47,487 nt of DNA, taken from contig JAEUJA010000218.1 of NCBI GenBank assembly GCA_016793195.1, positions 1 through 47,487 of the forward strand, in the 5' to 3' direction. Below the pieces are notes generated by a model, which was given only the letters and a program-made list of their open reading frames with translations, was not told the origin of the DNA and made no database searches. This DNA is from Phycisphaerae bacterium (GTDB lineage Bacteria; Planctomycetota; Phycisphaerae; Phycisphaerales; UBA1924). Numbering within the stretch: position 1 is the first letter of the stretch; every line of letters starts with the position of its first letter. The translations under genes were made by a program, and so were the position numbers. This document shows positions 1 to 6,086 of this stretch, in pieces.

Positions 1-1007
1 CCCAGGCGATAGCGGTTCTCGTCGAAGAACTTCTCGGCGAACAGCTGGCGGGCCTTCTCGACCTGCGGCGGGTTGCCGGGGCGGAGCTTGCTGTAAATCT
101 TCAGCAGCGCCCGCTCGTACTCGGTCGAGGCCTCGAACTGCTCCAGCTTCTCCTCCGCGACCGTGTTCAGGATCAGCACGTCGCTGGGGTTCTGGATGAC
201 CTTCACGGTCTTCAAATTCGACGCGGTGATGGCGCCGGCGGCCTCGCCGATCTGGCGCCCGACGTGCACCAGCTCCTCGCCGGTTTCCTTGTCGATGATG
301 CTCTCGGCGGCCCAGTGCTCGGGCTTGACCTGCTCGGCCTTGATCGTGCTGATCTCGTAGAACAGACCCAGGAGCGCCTCGGTCGTGCTCACGCTCTCGT
401 CGAGGCAGCGGAGGAAGGTGGTGGCGGCGAGCTTGGTCGACTGGTCGATCCGCATCGCCAGCACGTCCTTCTTGGTCACCTCCAGCTCGATCCACGAGCC
501 GCGCTCGGGGATGATTCGGGTCGAGTGCAGCGGGCGGTCGCCCTCGCTGGAGACGATCGAGAAGTCCACGCCCGGGGAGCGGTGCAGCTGGCTGACGATC
601 ACGCGCTCGGCGCCGTTGACGATGAACTCGCCGCCGCCCTGCATGATCGGGAACTCGCCGAGGTAGATCTCTTCTTCGGGGGTGTCGGGGTGCCCCTCCC
701 GCTTGAGGCGGACGCAGACCCGGAACGGCAGGCCGTAGGTCAGCCGGAGCTCTCGGCACTCGTCCGAGGTGTACCGGGCGTCCTCCAGCTCGTAGTAGGA
801 GTACTCGAGCTGCATGGTGCCGTCGTAGCTCTCGATCGGGAAGATCTCGCGGAGGAGGGACTCCAGCCCGAGCGACTTGTCGCGCTCGTGGGGTCCCTTG
901 CCCAGCTGGAGGAACCGCTCATAGGCGGCCCTCTGCACCTGGGTCAGGTCCGGAACTTCGATCGCGTCGCCACGCTTCGAGAAATCGCGCACTTTCGCCA
1001 TGGCCAT
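1..1007 (-). CDS. rpoB: DNA-directed RNA polymerase beta subunit, N-terminal part (runs off window)
   Basis: This is the amino-terminal 335 or so residues of the RNA polymerase beta subunit; the rest lies beyond position 1. Reading leftward, the protein begins MAMAKVRDFSKRG and contains standard beta-subunit blocks such as GEFPIMQGGGEFIVNGAERV and VSQLHRSPGV, which belong to the beta protrusion and the start of the lobe and form part of the catalytic core of transcription. Two in-frame ATGs lie 6 nt apart at 1007 and 1001. The outer one is chosen because AGGA lies 5 nt upstream of it. It follows rplL on the same strand after a 339-nt gap that carries a terminator/attenuator hairpin, as is common between rplL and rpoB. 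Identity is certain; the exact start is less so. Confidence 0.97.
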   Translation of the reverse strand, partial: MAMAKVRDFSKRGDAIEVPDLTQVQRAAYERFLQLGKGPHERDKSLGLESLLREIFPIESYDGTMQLEYSYYELEDARYTSDECRELRLTYGLPFRVCVRLKREGHPDTPEEEIYLGEFPIMQGGGEFIVNGAERVIVSQLHRSPGVDFSIVSSEGDRPLHSTRIIPERGSWIELEVTKKDVLAMRIDQSTKLAATTFLRCLDESVSTTEALLGLFYEISTIKAEQVKPEHWAAESIIDKETGEELVHVGRQIGEAAGAITASNLKTVKVIQNPSDVLILNTVAEEKLEQFEASTEYERALLKIYSKLRPGNPPQVEKARQLFAEKFFDENRYRL

Positions 1008-1346
1008 CGATGTCCTCACGATGGAGTACAAGGCCGCGTTGTCACGCGCCCCGGCAGAGCCAAATGCTCCAGCATCAGCATGTGGTGGAAGTCAATGCCC
1101 GCCCCTGTTGCACCGACCACACAGTCAGGAATCGCGCAGTGTATCCATCCTGCGCACACCGGACAAATTGGGTCCGCCACACGAAGATCAAAAAAAGAGG
1201 CCCGCCCAATGACGGGCCCCTTCTTTGTTCCAACATTCTCTACCCAGAAACACACATCCGAATCGGGGTGCCCCGTTCGGAGTGCTGAACTCCGCGGGGG
1301 GTTCCCGCCGGGTGGGTGTTCCACCCGGCACCGGATCGAATGGCGA
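1008..1346 (-). other. rplL-rpoB intergenic region
   Basis: This 339-nt gap separates rplL from rpoB. The clear element is the hairpin with a T-run at about 1190-1220, listed separately. No convincing gene was found: reading frames crossing it on both strands have atypical composition and no ribosome site. The part between the hairpin and rpoB (1008-1189) must carry the rpoB leader and possibly an rpoB promoter, but no clear -35/-10 pair was recognised. Confidence 0.5.
1190..1220 (-). terminator. Terminator/attenuator between rplL and rpoB
   Basis: On the minus strand a GGCCCG...CGGGCC stem (arms 1213-1218 and 1199-1204, 8-nt loop) is followed after TC by seven T residues (1196-1190). The upstream side is also A/G-rich and could extend the stem. 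This is a typical intrinsic terminator placed after rplL. Since rpoB follows on the same strand, partial read-through (attenuation that lowers polymerase relative to L7/L12) is likely, as known for this junction in other bacteria. Confidence 0.75.
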
Positions 1347-1730
1347 TCAGGCCATTTCGATCGTGGCGCCGGCCTCTTCCAGGCTCTTCTTGAGCTTGTC
1401 GGCCTCGGCCTTGTCCAGGCCCTGCTTGACCGGCTTGCCCGGGGCATCGACGAAGGCCTTGGCCTCGGCCAGACCCAGGCCGGTGACCTCGCGGACGGCC
1501 TTGATGACGTTGATCTTCTTGGCCGGGTCCACGCCCTTAAGGATCACGTCGAAGCTGGTCTTTTCCTCGGCCTTGGCAGCGCCGCCCGCGGCGGGGGCCG
1601 CCATCATGACCGCGCCACCGGCGGCGGCCTCGATGCCGTACTTGTCCTTCATGTACTTGCCGAGCTCGACCGCGTCCTTGAGGGACAGACCCGCCAGAGC
1701 GTCGCCGAGCTGATCAACCGTCATCGCCAT
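1347..1730 (-). CDS. rplL: 50S ribosomal protein L7/L12
   Basis: L7/L12 forms the multimeric stalk of the large subunit that recruits translational GTPases. The 127-residue product has the expected layout: an N-terminal dimerisation and L10-binding segment (about residues 1-35), an Ala/Gly-rich hinge (about 36-57), and the compact C-terminal domain with the conserved [20 protein letters not shown] and [11 protein letters not shown] segments. GGAAGG lies 6 nt before the chosen ATG. The partner gene rplJ is not adjacent: a 2.1-kb gene for a secreted dockerin protein and two terminator-like hairpins lie between them, so rplL probably has its own promoter. Identity is certain. Confidence 0.98.
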
Positions 1731-1805
1731 GATGCACCTTCCGAGGCCGGGCGGAGCGCCCGAACCAGATTCCCGCGCCCCAGTGGGACCGGAACGCCCG
1801 GTCTT

Positions 1806-1833
1806 TTAATCCGTGCTGCCCGCAACGGGGCAA
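1806..1833 (-). promoter_or_regulatory. Candidate promoter for rplL
   Basis: On the minus strand, TTGCCC (1833-1828) lies 16 nt before GATTAA (1811-1806), about 75 nt upstream of the rplL start. Both boxes are weak matches to a housekeeping consensus. The need for a promoter here follows from the terminator upstream and the loss of linkage to rplJ, so this is partly inference. Confidence 0.35.
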
Positions 1834-1954
1834 GCGGACCAGTGGAGTCGGCAGGGTCGAAATGATTGGCGGGTTGACCGGTTCGATCAAGTCTCCGAAC
1901 AAAGCCAGATCGAGGGGTTGAAAGGCACGAGCGTGAGGCCGGGCGTCGCCAATG

Positions 1955-1981
1955 AAAAGCCCCCGACTGAAGTCGGGGGCT
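1955..1981 (-). terminator. Intrinsic terminator of the dockerin-protein gene
   Basis: A perfect stem AGCCCCCGAC/GTCGGGGGCT (arms 1972-1981 and 1958-1967, TGAA/TTCA loop) is followed on the minus strand by TTTT (1958-1955). It sits about 60 nt after the stop of the dockerin gene and ends that transcript before rplL. Confidence 0.85.
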
Positions 1982-2039
1982 CGGAGTGCGGAGTGCTCTG
2001 GGTGTTCGGTCCTGATGCCCGATGGCTGAAGCCTTGGCT

Positions 2040-4127
2040 TCAGCAGCCGGATTCGAAGGCGGAGGCGAACATGTCGTAGTCGTCGCCGTTGACGAAGTTG
2101 TCGTTGTTGAGGTCGGCGGCGGGGTCGGCGGCCTCGAAGGCGTCGGCGAAGGCGTCGTAGTCATCGCCGTTGACGAAGCCGTCGTTGTTGAAGTCCGCGA
2201 GGCAGGGGGCGTACTGGAACTCGAAGGCGCCGCGGTCGATGACGGGGGCGGGCCCGACGCCGGTGTCGGCGATGAAGGGGACGTCGATGAGACGATCGCC
2301 GCCGCCGAGGTCCTGGCTCCACTTCTCGGCGAAGTTGAGATCGGTGTCGAAGTCCCAGGAGTCGACGGAGACGAGGGAGTTGTTGCCGGCGTCGATGGCG
2401 GGGGAGTTGGACTGGAGGCGGAGGTTGTCGTCGAAGTTGCCGGGGACGTTGTCGGCGCCGTTGATGTCGATGAAGCTGGGGTTGGGGCTCTGGCCTTCGA
2501 TGGTGGTGGAGAGGGCGGTGTAGAAGGAGCCGTGGGCGTTGACGGCGTAGAGCTGGGACTCGGCGGTGGTGTTGGGCGAGCCGTCGGTGTTGCCCCAGAA
2601 GATGGAGTTGGTGATGGTGGCGTCGGTGCCGGTGGAGACGTAGAGGCCGCCGGCGGTGCCCGCGGGGGCGAGGTTGTTGGCGAAGGTGGACATGCGGACG
2701 GTCATGCCGACGCCGGTGTCGCCCGCACAGGCGATGGCGCCGCCGTCGCCGGCGGAGGCGAGGTTTCCGTTGAAGACGCAGCCTTCGGCGGTGCCCTGGG
2801 CGAAGAGGACCTTGACGGCGCCGCCGGAGCCGGTGGCGTGGTTGTCGAGGAACTCGGTGTTGGCGAAGAGGATGGAGCCGGAGGTGTGGTGATAGGTCGC
2901 GCCGCCTTCGCCGCTGGTCCAGTTGTCGTAGAAGAGGCCGCTGATGAACTTGGGGTGGCCGTTGGTGGAGATGACGGCGCCGCCGTCGGTGCTGGCGAAG
3001 TTGGAGAGGAACTTGACGTTTCGGCAGACGATGGAGCTGTTGACGGCGGTCATGCCGCCGCCCTTGCTGTCGGCGCCGCCGCCGCTGGCGTATCCGCGGG
3101 CGATGGAGAAGCCGTCGATGAGGGTGTCGCCGAGGGTGTTGTCGGCGTCGACGACGTGGTAGGAGTTGTCAGTCTGGGCGCTGGTGCCGATGGAGCCGCT
3201 CATGGCGGTGATGAAGGCCCAGGGGCTGGTGCGCTGGGAGAGCGAGGTCTCGGAGCCGGCGAACCCGCCGTAGAGGCGGAGGCCGGAGGGGATGACGAAG
3301 GACGCGGTGCGCGAGGTGCCGCTGGTGGGGTAGTAGAAGCCCTGGGCGGTCCAGATTTCGGCGTAGGCGCCGCCGATGTTCTTGGCGGCGACGAGCGGGA
3401 CCTGGAGGTCGGTGTAGGCGGTGGCCCACGAGGTGCCGTCGGAGGCGCCGGAGGCGTTGTCGTTGACGTAGAAGCGGAGGCGGTTGCTGTCGATCTTGCG
3501 GAGTTGCAGGCCGCCGACGTGGGCGGTGCCGAAGGGCGAGTCGGCGACCTTGACGGTGATGGAGCCGCCGGCGGAGACGGTGATGACGTGGATGGCGTGG
3601 GTGACGCCGGGGACGAGCTTGCTGGCGGACATCGCGCCGCCGACGTATTGATAGCTGCTGGAGGTGCCGGTGACGGTCACGCCGCTCTGGTTGGAGGAGT
3701 CGCCCGGGAGATCGGCGTAGGTGAAGACCGCGTAGGTCCCGGCGGCGAGGTTGTTGAAGCTGTAGGTCAGGGTGCCGAAGCTGGTCAAGCCCTGGTAGTC
3801 GAGCATGAGCTTGGCGGCGTCGCCGGAGACGCCCGCGTCGGCGGCGGCGGCGAACGTGCCGGAGGTGTCGCGGGTGAAGGTGGCGGCGGAGTTGTTGCCC
3901 GCCAGGTCCTTGAGCACCGAGGTGGTCGCGGTCGCCGAAGTGATGGAGTTCCAGAAGCCGGCCTGTCCGGCGGCGCCGGCGAAGGCGTTGGCGGGCACGC
4001 CCGCGCCGTTGCCGCTGGCGTTGTTGAGGTCGACGTTGAAGCTCTGGCCCATCGCCTGGCCGCAGAGGAGGAGGAGGGTGGCGGCGAGCGTGGACGTGGT
4101 GATCGCGCGAGACTTCGTGAGAGCCAT
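2040..4127 (-). CDS. Secreted parallel-beta-helix-like protein with C-terminal paired dockerin repeats
   Basis: The 695-residue product starts with a signal peptide (MALTKSRAITTSTLAATLLL, then an Ala-x-Ala-like end near CGQAMGQS). A jelly-roll-like domain follows, then a Ser/Thr/Asn/Gly-rich repetitive region typical of right-handed beta-helix polymorphic-outer-membrane or 'choice-of-anchor Q' proteins, including the NSPAIDAGNN and DRGAFEF motifs near residues 585-640. The last 50 residues hold two calcium-binding dockerin-like loops, DFNNDGFVNGDDYD and DLNNDNFVNGDDYD, and end in ESGC, matching the 'GC-type dockerin' found in Phycisphaerae exoproteins. The ATG at 4127 is preferred over 4151 because AAAGGA lies 7 nt before it. 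The gene lies inside the ribosomal cluster, between rplJ and rplL, flanked by terminators, so it is probably transcribed alone. Its ligand or substrate is unknown. Confidence 0.85.
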   Translation of the reverse strand: MALTKSRAITTSTLAATLLLLCGQAMGQSFNVDLNNASGNGAGVPANAFAGAAGQAGFWNSITSATATTSVLKDLAGNNSAATFTRDTSGTFAAAADAGVSGDAAKLMLDYQGLTSFGTLTYSFNNLAAGTYAVFTYADLPGDSSNQSGVTVTGTSSSYQYVGGAMSASKLVPGVTHAIHVITVSAGGSITVKVADSPFGTAHVGGLQLRKIDSNRLRFYVNDNASGASDGTSWATAYTDLQVPLVAAKNIGGAYAEIWTAQGFYYPTSGTSRTASFVIPSGLRLYGGFAGSETSLSQRTSPWAFITAMSGSIGTSAQTDNSYHVVDADNTLGDTLIDGFSIARGYASGGGADSKGGGMTAVNSSIVCRNVKFLSNFASTDGGAVISTNGHPKFISGLFYDNWTSGEGGATYHHTSGSILFANTEFLDNHATGSGGAVKVLFAQGTAEGCVFNGNLASAGDGGAIACAGDTGVGMTVRMSTFANNLAPAGTAGGLYVSTGTDATITNSIFWGNTDGSPNTTAESQLYAVNAHGSFYTALSTTIEGQSPNPSFIDINGADNVPGNFDDNLRLQSNSPAIDAGNNSLVSVDSWDFDTDLNFAEKWSQDLGGGDRLIDVPFIADTGVGPAPVIDRGAFEFQYAPCLADFNNDGFVNGDDYDAFADAFEAADPAADLNNDNFVNGDDYDMFASAFESGC

Positions 4128-4310
4128 TGGTTGGTCCTTTCCGTGTGTCATGTGTGCCCGGGGCGGGTGCGAGTCCGCCGCGGGTGTTTGGGTGTCGTCG
4201 CAACCCAGTGCGTCGCGGGGGGTGGAGGCCGCTAACCCGGTCGCGAAAAAAATGGTACCGATCGGGCCGGAGAATCGGGGCTCGGGTGGTTGATGGGGCC
4301 CGGGCGCGCG

Positions 4311-4354
4311 AAAAAACGGGGGCCGCGGCCGGTGGAACCCGGTGCGACCCCCGT
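4311..4354 (-). terminator. Terminator after rplJ
   Basis: On the minus strand ACGGGGG (4354-4348) pairs with CCCCCGT (4322-4316), with GC-rich inner sequence that can fold further, and is followed by a run of T (4316-4311). It lies about 30 nt past the rplJ stop and separates rplKAJ from the dockerin gene. A second, weaker CCGAT/ATCGG stem with seven T residues follows at about 4246-4276. Confidence 0.75.
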
Positions 4355-4382
4355 TGAAAGGGCTGCGAATTCAGATCGAAAT

Positions 4383-4943
4383 TCAGCCGACCTTGGCGAT
4401 GGCCTCGCCCTTTTCGAGCTTGGTCTCGATGGCCTTGATGAGGCCGGCGACCGTGGAGCCCGGCCCCTTGACCTGGCCCATGAGCTTCTTGGCGGGGCTG
4501 ACGACGAGGGTGACCACGTTGGCCACGGCCTCTTCGCGGGTGGGGAGCTTGCTCAGTTCCTCGACGCCGGCCTTGCCCGAGTAGAGCTGTCCATCGAGGA
4601 CGGCGCCCTTGAGCTCGATGCCGGGGAACTTGGCGATGAGCCCGACGACCTCGCGGGCGCACTCGACGACGGACGACCCGCCGTAGACCAGGGCGCTGGG
4701 CCCGGAGAGGAAGTCGGCCAGGGGCGCCAGGGGCGTGCCGGCGAAGTTCTTGCGGGCCAGCGAGTTTCGGATGACGCTGACCTTGATCTTCTTCTTGGCC
4801 AGGCCCAGGCGGACCTTGGTGTTGTCCGTGCCCTTGAGGGCGCGGACGCTGATGAGCATCGCCTCGCGGACCTTGGTGGTCGCGGGGTCGGTGAGACGCG
4901 ACGTGTAATCGCGCATGATGGCCTGCTTGACGGTCTTGGACAT
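4383..4943 (-). CDS. rplJ: 50S ribosomal protein L10
   Basis: L10 is the base of the ribosomal stalk; it binds 23S rRNA and L7/L12 dimers. The 186-residue product has the expected length and blocks: an N-terminal RNA-binding domain (SKTVKQAIMRDYTSRL, VRALKGTDNTKVRLGLAKKK), the conserved VIRNSLARKNFAGT and LSGPSALVYG segments, and a C-terminal helix (VAGLIKAIETKLEKGEAIAK) that would dock L7/L12 dimers. It lies 8 nt after rplA on the same strand. It is followed by a terminator rather than by rplL, which is unusual because L10 and L12 are normally co-translated. Identity is certain. Confidence 0.97.
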   Translation of the reverse strand: MSKTVKQAIMRDYTSRLTDPATTKVREAMLISVRALKGTDNTKVRLGLAKKKIKVSVIRNSLARKNFAGTPLAPLADFLSGPSALVYGGSSVVECAREVVGLIAKFPGIELKGAVLDGQLYSGKAGVEELSKLPTREEAVANVVTLVVSPAKKLMGQVKGPGSTVAGLIKAIETKLEKGEAIAKVG

Positions 4944-4951
4944 GGTTCACC

Positions 4952-5653
4952 TCACTCCGCGGCGACAGCCTGGACGTACTTGATCTGGACTCCGGGGGTC
5001 ATGGCGCCGCTGATCGTGATCTTCTTGATGTACAGGCCCTTGGCGGTCGCGGGGCGGACCTTCTCGATGGCGTGGATGAAGTGCTCGAGGTTGGCGACCA
5101 GGTCGCCCTCCGGGAAGCTCATCTTGCCGATGACCGCGTGGACGTTGCCGCCCTTGTCGGCGCGGTATTCGACCTTGCCGGCCGAGTATTCCTTCACCGC
5201 CTCGGGGACGTTGGTGGCGACGGTGCCGGCCTTGGGCGAGGGCATGAGGCCCTTGGGGCCCAGGACCTTGCCGAGCTTGGAGACGACGCGCATCATGTCG
5301 GGCGACGCGATCGCGACATCGAAATCCATCCAGCCCTTCTCGATTTCGGCGACCAGGTCTTCGGCGCCGGCCTTGATGGCGCCGGCGGCCAAGGCCTTGG
5401 GGGCCACGTCGCTCTGGCAGAACGCCACGACGCGCTTGGTCTTGCCGATGCCCTTGGGGAGCGAGAGCGCGCCGCGGAGGGCCTGGTCGGCCTGCGCGGT
5501 GTCGATCCCCAGATGCATGCAGACGTTGACGGTCTGGTCGAACTTGGGAGCCTTGAACTTCTTCAGGGCGGCCACCGCCTCAGCGGCGGGGAGCGCGTCA
5601 CTGGGCTTCAGCGACGCGTTGGCCTTGGCCCGCTTGGTGATTCTCACTGGCAT
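4952..5653 (-). CDS. rplA: 50S ribosomal protein L1
   Basis: L1 binds 23S rRNA at the mobile L1 stalk and often represses its own operon. The 233-residue length is standard. Family blocks are visible: FDQTVNVCMHLGIDTAQADQ near the N-terminus, GAEDLVAEIEKGWMDFDVAI and LGPKGLMPSPKAGTV in the middle, and GLYIKKITISGAMTPGVQI at the end. It starts 4 nt after rplK and ends 8 nt before rplJ, so rplK-rplA-rplJ form a tight operon. No L1-binding mimic was identified in the leader. Identity is certain. Confidence 0.98.
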   Translation of the reverse strand: MPVRITKRAKANASLKPSDALPAAEAVAALKKFKAPKFDQTVNVCMHLGIDTAQADQALRGALSLPKGIGKTKRVVAFCQSDVAPKALAAGAIKAGAEDLVAEIEKGWMDFDVAIASPDMMRVVSKLGKVLGPKGLMPSPKAGTVATNVPEAVKEYSAGKVEYRADKGGNVHAVIGKMSFPEGDLVANLEHFIHAIEKVRPATAKGLYIKKITISGAMTPGVQIKYVQAVAAE

Positions 5654-5657
5654 GGCT

Positions 5658-6086
5658 TCAGCCCTCCACCGTCACGCCCATCGAGCGCGCGGTCCCTTCG
5701 ATCACTCGCATGGCGGCCTCGATGCTGGCGGAGTTGAGGTCCGCCGCCTTGGCCTCCGCGATCTTCTTGACCTGATCGCGCGTGATCTTGCCGACCTTGT
5801 TCTTGTTGGGAACGCCCGAGCCCTTTTCGGCCTTGGCCGCCTCCTTGATGAGGACGCTGGCGGGCGAGCTCTTGATTTCGAAGTCGAACGAGCGATCGCT
5901 GTACACCGTGACGATGCACCCGACCACCTTGCCCTTGACGTTCTGCGTCGCGGCGTTGAACTTCTGGATGAACTGGCCGGGGTTCACGCCCTTGGAACCA
6001 AGGACGGGGCCCAGCGGCGGCGCCGGCGTGGCCGCGCCACCCGTCGCCATGATCTTGAATACCTGTGTGACTTCTTTCTTGCCCAT
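5658..6086 (-). CDS. rplK: 50S ribosomal protein L11
   Basis: L11 sits at the base of the GTPase-associated centre and binds 23S rRNA. The 142-residue product has both domains: the proline-rich N-terminal half (ATGGAATPAPPLGPVLGSKG, NPGQFIQKFNAAT) and the C-terminal rRNA-binding half (KVGKITRDQVKKIAEAKAAD, IEGTARSMGVTVEG). GGAGG lies upstream of the ATG at 6086. It opens the rplKAJ operon. The genes usually found before it (secE, nusG) are absent; the upstream neighbour is an aldehyde dehydrogenase gene on the same strand. Identity is certain. Confidence 0.98.
   Translation of the reverse strand: MGKKEVTQVFKIMATGGAATPAPPLGPVLGSKGVNPGQFIQKFNAATQNVKGKVVGCIVTVYSDRSFDFEIKSSPASVLIKEAAKAEKGSGVPNKNKVGKITRDQVKKIAEAKAADLNSASIEAAMRVIEGTARSMGVTVEG

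Follow-up and report, generated by a model that had tools for sequence, protein, structure and literature searches.

Introduction

L12 is the multi-copy protein of the ribosomal stalk, and its supply in bacteria is thought to be tied to that of L10 by the rplJL leader together with co-translation; rplJ and rplL are otherwise almost always adjacent. The rplJL pair is autoregulated by the L10(L12)4 complex – through translational repression in E. coli and through attenuation in B. subtilis – and in the RNA target of that complex a kink-turn is combined with a UAA that is unpaired (PMC4538822). Among the 20 ribosomal protein leaders (r-leaders) tabulated by Eckert and Weinberg in 2020 there is none for L10 or L12, and none in Planctomycetota (PMC7247131). 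Insertions into the rpoBC/ribosomal protein cluster are also on record: nrdHEF lies between rplL and rsmC in Lactobacillaceae, and in Haemophilus rplJL has moved together (PMC8046335).

The locus described here shares with those insertions the entry of foreign genes into the cluster between parts of an operon. It differs in that rplJ and rplL have themselves been parted, in that new terminators are present, and in that a putatively regulatory RNA has stayed with rplL. The window – the whole stretch of DNA analysed, 47,487 nt, which is the entire contig G000:C247 of an 84%-complete metagenome-assembled genome (MAG) – belongs to one genus of the class Phycisphaerae. The class as a whole carries a strongly conserved, apparently undescribed RNA that stands before rplL only, and a genus in which the two genes have come apart while the RNA remained with rplL amounts to a natural experiment showing which gene the element belongs to.

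A parted rplJ and rplL

On the minus strand of the window the order is rplK, rplA, rplJ, a dockerin gene, rplL and the start of rpoB (Table 1), with a distance between rplJ and rplL of 2652 nt, exactly positions 1731-4382. The original prediction had placed a gene for an exported dockerin protein between rplJ and rplL, in the same direction, with a terminator behind rplJ and another behind the insert; gene calls and profile matches bear out the first claim, and hairpins with T-tracts at both places the second. A third hairpin, after rplL, was found in addition to those predicted. A simple terminator scan of the window listed none of the three. The rplL of the window is the sole full L12 gene in the G000 genome, and the gap between rplA and rplJ, only 8 nt, is too short for an L10 leader to fit before rplJ.

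Table 1. Features of the rplK-rpoB region, in the order of transcription (window coordinates)
Feature	Position	Strand	Evidence and remarks
rplK	5658-6086	-	
rplA	4952-5653	-	
rplJ (L10), last of rplK-rplA-rplJ	4383-4943	-	Pfam PF00466 E=3.9e-8; NCBIfam L10 E=2.5e-30
Intrinsic terminator 3' of rplJ	4310-4356	-	hairpin -33.0 kcal/mol, then TTTTTT
Motif GGTTAGC-N18-CGCACT upstream of dockerin gene	4207-4237	-	common to paralog
Dockerin gene, exported 695-aa protein, C-terminal GC-type dockerin domain	2040-4127	-	NCBIfam NF041540 E=4.5e-8
Intrinsic terminator 3' of dockerin gene	1951-1982	-	11-bp stem, -22.0 kcal/mol, then TTTTC; GGGGGCTTTTC
Promoter-like site for rplL, TTGATC-17-AATCAT	1862-1890	-	hexamers identical in G000, G001, G003
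Putative rplL leader RNA, three-way junction	1773-1850	-	R1 32.5 bits E=1.5e-6; R2 49.0 bits E=1e-10; covariation
rplL (L7/L12)	1347-1730	-	TIGR00855 E=6.4e-34
Intrinsic terminator 3' of rplL	1186-1225	-	-24.5 kcal/mol, then TTTTTTT; kept in G003
Promoter-like site for rpoB, TTGTCC-17-TACACT	1138-1166	-	sequence inspection
rpoB 5' part, runs off contig	1-1001	-	98% identical to G003 rpoB, which is 3' of rplL there

A critical issue is whether the arrangement is real. Comparison of gene order across relatives, which the original prediction had proposed as a check, found the insert in all four genomes of the genus, whereas rplJ and rplL are adjacent in the 55 other same-order genomes that hold both genes (84-417 nt apart, median 142). 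Gene order, its presence throughout the genus and its absence outside are direct observations, and they indicate that the split is a derived trait, fixed in the genus as sampled by four genomes (G000-G003), all of them MAGs. That the genomes are MAGs, that the contig of G001 ends inside rplL, behind the insert, and that G002 leaves the gene order after the dockerin gene might be taken to point to an error of assembly or binning – the outcome that the original prediction named as fatal to it. The junction between rplJ and the dockerin gene, however, occurs in four separate MAGs and that between the dockerin gene and rplL in three, in diverged sequence (proteins 83-86% identical), so that the same error would have to recur; in G003 both rplL and rpoB follow the insert exactly as in the window. 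We therefore reject an artefact, whose probability we regard as negligible.

The deviating G002 locus (L034 16796-19001) has opposite-strand genes after the dockerin gene in place of rplL, one of which resembles a pseudopilin-type prepilin by eye; neither rplL nor rpoB was found in the G002 bin.

The inserted gene

The dockerin gene is taken to start at an ATG behind a conserved GGAAAGGA, giving a protein of 695 aa; the start in the list of open reading frames, 4151, lies upstream of that. The protein belongs to the GC-type dockerin proteins: its C-terminal domain (NF041540, dockerin_GC; residues 650-703) scores 33.4 bits against a cut-off of 29, and its N-terminus carries a hydrophobic export signal, MALTKSRAITTSTLAATLLLLCGQAMGQ, which is signal-like by inspection only. 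Orthologs, with the protein identities given above, stand directly after rplJ in the same-genus MAGs G001, G002 and G003. Within the genus dN/dS is 0.28-0.50 for the dockerin gene and 0.09-0.19 for rplJ, values that indicate purifying selection on the inserted gene.

Beyond the domain that it shares with other NF041540 proteins there is nothing unusual about the insert. The 3.6 Mb of the G000 genome encode 114 dockerin domains of the GC type, and a full-length paralog of the insert, 47% identical, lies on contig C124. We considered a special role of the inserted protein in the ribosome and rejected it as unneeded, the protein carrying one of 114 such domains and having this paralog elsewhere. 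Between the rplJ terminator and the dockerin gene are some 180 nt that hold a motif common to the paralog. The genome contains the pattern GGTTAGC-N18-CGCACT in two places, as often as it contains the reversed pattern used as a control: the one in Table 1 and one at G000:C124:5776-5806, each about 80-110 nt upstream of one of the two full-length paralogs. A similar sequence precedes the G001 paralog. The gene, drawn from a large paralogous family, probably came in between rplJ and the RNA element, bringing its own upstream region and terminator.

Transcription of rplL

The terminator after rplJ is present in all four genomes of the genus (-27.6 to -33.6 kcal/mol, followed by T6-T7), with its stem kept throughout and a compensated pair in G001. 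That after the dockerin gene reaches -21 to -24 kcal/mol across the genus, a different hairpin occupying the same place in G001-G003. Among same-order relatives an intrinsic terminator was found in the rplJ-rplL gap in 1 of 55 genomes (shuffles 6/275) and in the rplL-rpoB gap in 27 of 36 (shuffles 18/180). The first of these counts led us to reject the possibility that the rplJ terminator was inherited from relatives; taken together they point to rplL as the ancestral last gene of rplKAJL. Most likely, as judged from these sequences, the ancestral unit rplKAJL ended after rplL, and rpoBC had its own promoter. We envisage that this unit, rplK-rplA-rplJ-rplL with rplL as the gene next to the terminator, came apart in the ancestor of the G000 genus.

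In most relatives rplJ and the RNA element are only an estimated 40 nt or so apart, which would not accommodate a promoter. Members of the genus have a conserved stretch upstream of the element that carries the two hexamers of the promoter-like site TTGATC-17-AATCAT; both are invariant in G000, G001 and G003, while 8 of the 17 spacer positions vary. The site matches the consensus at only 8 of 12 positions and falls below the cut-off of the promoter scan. Given that all four genomes have both the insert and a terminator behind rplJ, rplL is very probably transcribed from its own promoter in this genus. The original prediction had held that rplL must be transcribed on its own, and had looked to a new start before rplL for support. 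The terminators and the conserved hexamers favour that claim; its "must" goes further than these sequences do, which are not yet proof that rplL has an independent transcript, and the new start is a weak match.

Transcript ends and promoter use are here what we infer from observed terminator sequences, and they could be read in another way. If the terminators leaked, rplL would still share a transcript with rplJ, one that runs on across the dockerin gene, and nothing important would have changed – a reading in keeping with the preserved gene order and direction and with the modest promoter match before rplL. We consider it improbable. Read-through would have to pass two strong hairpins with T-tracts in series (-33 and -22 kcal/mol), the first conserved in four genomes but lacking in 54 of 55 relatives, and to cross a 2.6-kb insert with a non-ribosomal exported gene; moreover, the -35/-10-like hexamers are conserved directly upstream of the leader. 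With separate transcription of rplL as the preferred reading, rplKAJ would now end at the terminator after rplJ, the dockerin gene would form a unit of its own, and rplL would be transcribed from a new promoter immediately before the element, such that its mRNA starts with a structured leader.

A structured RNA before rplL

Directly upstream of rplL lies a three-way-junction RNA of about 60 nt, built from a stem P1, a CU/UC loop, a GG/CC step, a stem P2, an unpaired UUAAA linker and a stem P3. The pattern common to the aligned rplJ-rplL gaps is CCGACUGG-CCC..GGG-UUAAA-hairpin-CCUCUCGG. The UUAAA between P2 and P3 is nearly invariant. Sixteen rplJ-rplL gaps, aligned by sequence only, served as the seed, and in this alignment both partners have changed in 15 of 19 pairs, a result that none of 500 shuffles and no slid register came near. 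In an alignment of 58 sequences the figure is 16 of 19, with 94.8% of cells paired (again not approached by any of 500 shuffles or by any slid register); this larger alignment was fitted to the model and so leans towards it, which the seed alignment does not. The element thus has the conserved, covariation-supported secondary structure of an r-leader.

The seed model (R1) gave exactly one match per locus in 58 of 58 same-order genomes with both genes, the window among them, and always in the rplJ-rplL gap. A scan of 84,980 species genomes with an exact pattern returned 65 matches, every one beside rplJ and/or rplL, and between the two wherever both genes are on the stretch; all 65 stretches are titled Planctomycetota, nearly all of them Phycisphaerales or Phycisphaerae. 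In these two sets, then, the element stands directly upstream of a ribosomal protein gene and nowhere else.

Across 198 genomes of the class a refined model (R2) found 39 matches, 32 in the order and 7 in other families. The latter, in seven genomes of four other Phycisphaerae families, all fall between rplJ and rplL (8 further matches checked). Sister orders missed by the strict filters keep a divergent form, which in G116 reads CCGACUGUCC..GGGUUAAA..GCUCUCGG (E=3.5e-5); the matches in G116 and G184 are also in the rplJ-rplL gap. Weak whole-genome matches in G212, G203 and G077 have neither rplJ nor rplL nearby and were set aside as chance. In 57 loci from outside the order there was no convincing match, the best E value being 1.8 (L193 and L209 are members of the class), and outside class Phycisphaerae the rplJ-rplL gap is short and without a match to the element.

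When Rfam 15 was searched, nothing credible matched the element region at E up to 10 or the whole loci of nine relatives at E up to 1. As a control, the same scan was applied to the established leader region of E. coli, where it gave no L10 leader match either; the Rfam result therefore marks the element as undescribed in that database and has little bearing on whether it resembles an L10 site. The new model, in turn, had no match in the rplJL region of E. coli. The element is apparently new to description, and conserved across the class.

Relation to known RNAs

The L10 leader is the natural point of comparison. Both are structured RNAs in the L10/L12 message with an unpaired stretch that contains UAA – in our element the UUAAA linker – and with the setting of L10 and L12 supply as their aim, for our element a putative one. 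Position and architecture differ. The known leader lies upstream of rplJ and governs both genes, whereas the Phycisphaerae RNA lies between rplJ and rplL (58 of 58) and is a compact three-way junction without a kink-turn, that is, without tandem G.A/A.G pairs next to a 3-nt bulge. We considered the possibility that it is a direct copy of the L10 kink-turn and rejected it, since in nearly all sequences the GA of CCGACUGG forms Watson-Crick pairs with UC (AU in 55 of 58 at that pair).

With the r-leaders (PMC7247131) the element shares a restriction to one lineage, support from covariation and a place just upstream of one ribosomal protein gene; unlike those tabulated, it stands before the gene for L12 and belongs to Planctomycetota, and its ligand is a candidate. 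A further likeness is to the GTPase-associated centre, helices 42-44 of 23S rRNA, which contains the L11 and L10 site. Both are three-way junctions with an unpaired UUAAAGAG between arms, and these letters are the same in the element and in the 23S rRNA of these bacteria. The closing stem of the element differs, however, its P2 ranges from a short hairpin to a long arm, and the loops recognised by L11 are not copied. A copy of the L11-binding 58-mer was accordingly rejected, only the linker agreeing. The likeness of the linker would fit L11 or L10 as a ligand, and may be chance.

What the element serves and how it may work

Lying between two genes, the element of the relatives might serve either of them. 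In the G000 genus the insert lies between rplJ and the element, which has kept its place next to rplL; its core is identical or one base different among G000, G001 and G003, while its flanks have drifted. By this comparison of sequences the element belongs to rplL and not to rplJ: it is an rplL leader. The original prediction had further concluded that some other means must set the balance of L12 with L10. That conclusion needs refinement, for the structured RNA before rplL is class-wide and predates the split, and a device for setting L12 was plausibly already present when the genes were parted.

The covarying fold and its exclusive position before rplL are observed; from these we infer a ligand and a direction of regulation. 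The leader would act as other ribosomal protein leaders do, a ribosomal protein complex binding it and so reducing the translation of rplL whenever there is too much L12. The first candidate ligand is L10(L12)4, because rplL is the sole downstream gene and L12 has access to RNA only by way of L10. The unpaired UUAAA speaks for a feedback leader; the missing kink-turn, half of the known L10(L12)4 signature, counts against it. The explanation as a whole – a split of the ancestral unit, a separate promoter for rplL, and a class-wide rplL leader with ribosomal protein feedback – is the best that we can offer, and we consider it rather probable.

A different function deserves serious attention. The element was ancestrally intra-operonic, between two genes needed in unequal amounts; it lies 16-82 nt (median 38.5) from the rplL start codon, and the Shine-Dalgarno site lies outside the fold. 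There was no consistent predicted signal of Shine-Dalgarno sequestration by the element (mean unpaired probability 0.51), and no attenuator-like terminator was seen between element and rplL. These two negative results count against a feedback leader. A real rival is an element that works without feedback, with a fixed effect on processing, stability or translation; it would bring about an L12:L10 ratio of about 4:1 through a longer-lived or better translated rplL message, and would be kept because rplL needs a high yield. We nevertheless regard this as unlikely: the nearly invariant single-stranded UUAAA and the CU/UC loop point to a ligand or a tertiary contact, and a plain enhancer would have no need of an exact three-way junction across a whole class.

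Returning to the feedback leader, its broadest form is that class Phycisphaerae controls L12 apart from L10 by means of a new RNA family before rplL, and that this feedback sets the L10:L12 ratio, letting one genus part rplJ and rplL without harm. We advance this tentatively, as a possibility to which we give slightly less than even weight. If true, the ratio is set by feedback on rplL and not by co-regulation of rplJL. A 60-nt RNA and two proteins suffice to put separate control of L12 to a direct test.

Other rearrangements around rplJ, rplL and rpoB

About 143 Planctomycetota genomes were read by eye, and with few exceptions rplJ and rplL lie on one contig at a normal distance. The exceptions are G000 itself, G131 and G191 (contig ends), and G071, G121 and G157, in which the two genes are on different contigs. 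In these last three, from three other Planctomycetota families (L261-L266), rplJ and rplL lie inside their contigs among unrelated neighbours, apparently a second, separate parting of the pair; in both G071 and G157 a UDP-GlcNAc-epimerase-like gene (by eye) follows rplJ.

The gap between rplL and rpoB in the window (1002-1346) contains a terminator and a promoter-like site. Over roughly 250 nt before rpoB the sequences of G000 and G003 hardly differ, and they agree better there than in the flanking intergenic DNA, a degree of conservation that suggests an rpoB leader. In G032, G028, G040 and G046 (L267, L268, L269 and L270) the same gap has widened to 1.0-2.8 kb; that of G028 encodes a 415-aa protein without a Pfam match, and that of G032 a hybrid histidine kinase on the opposite strand.
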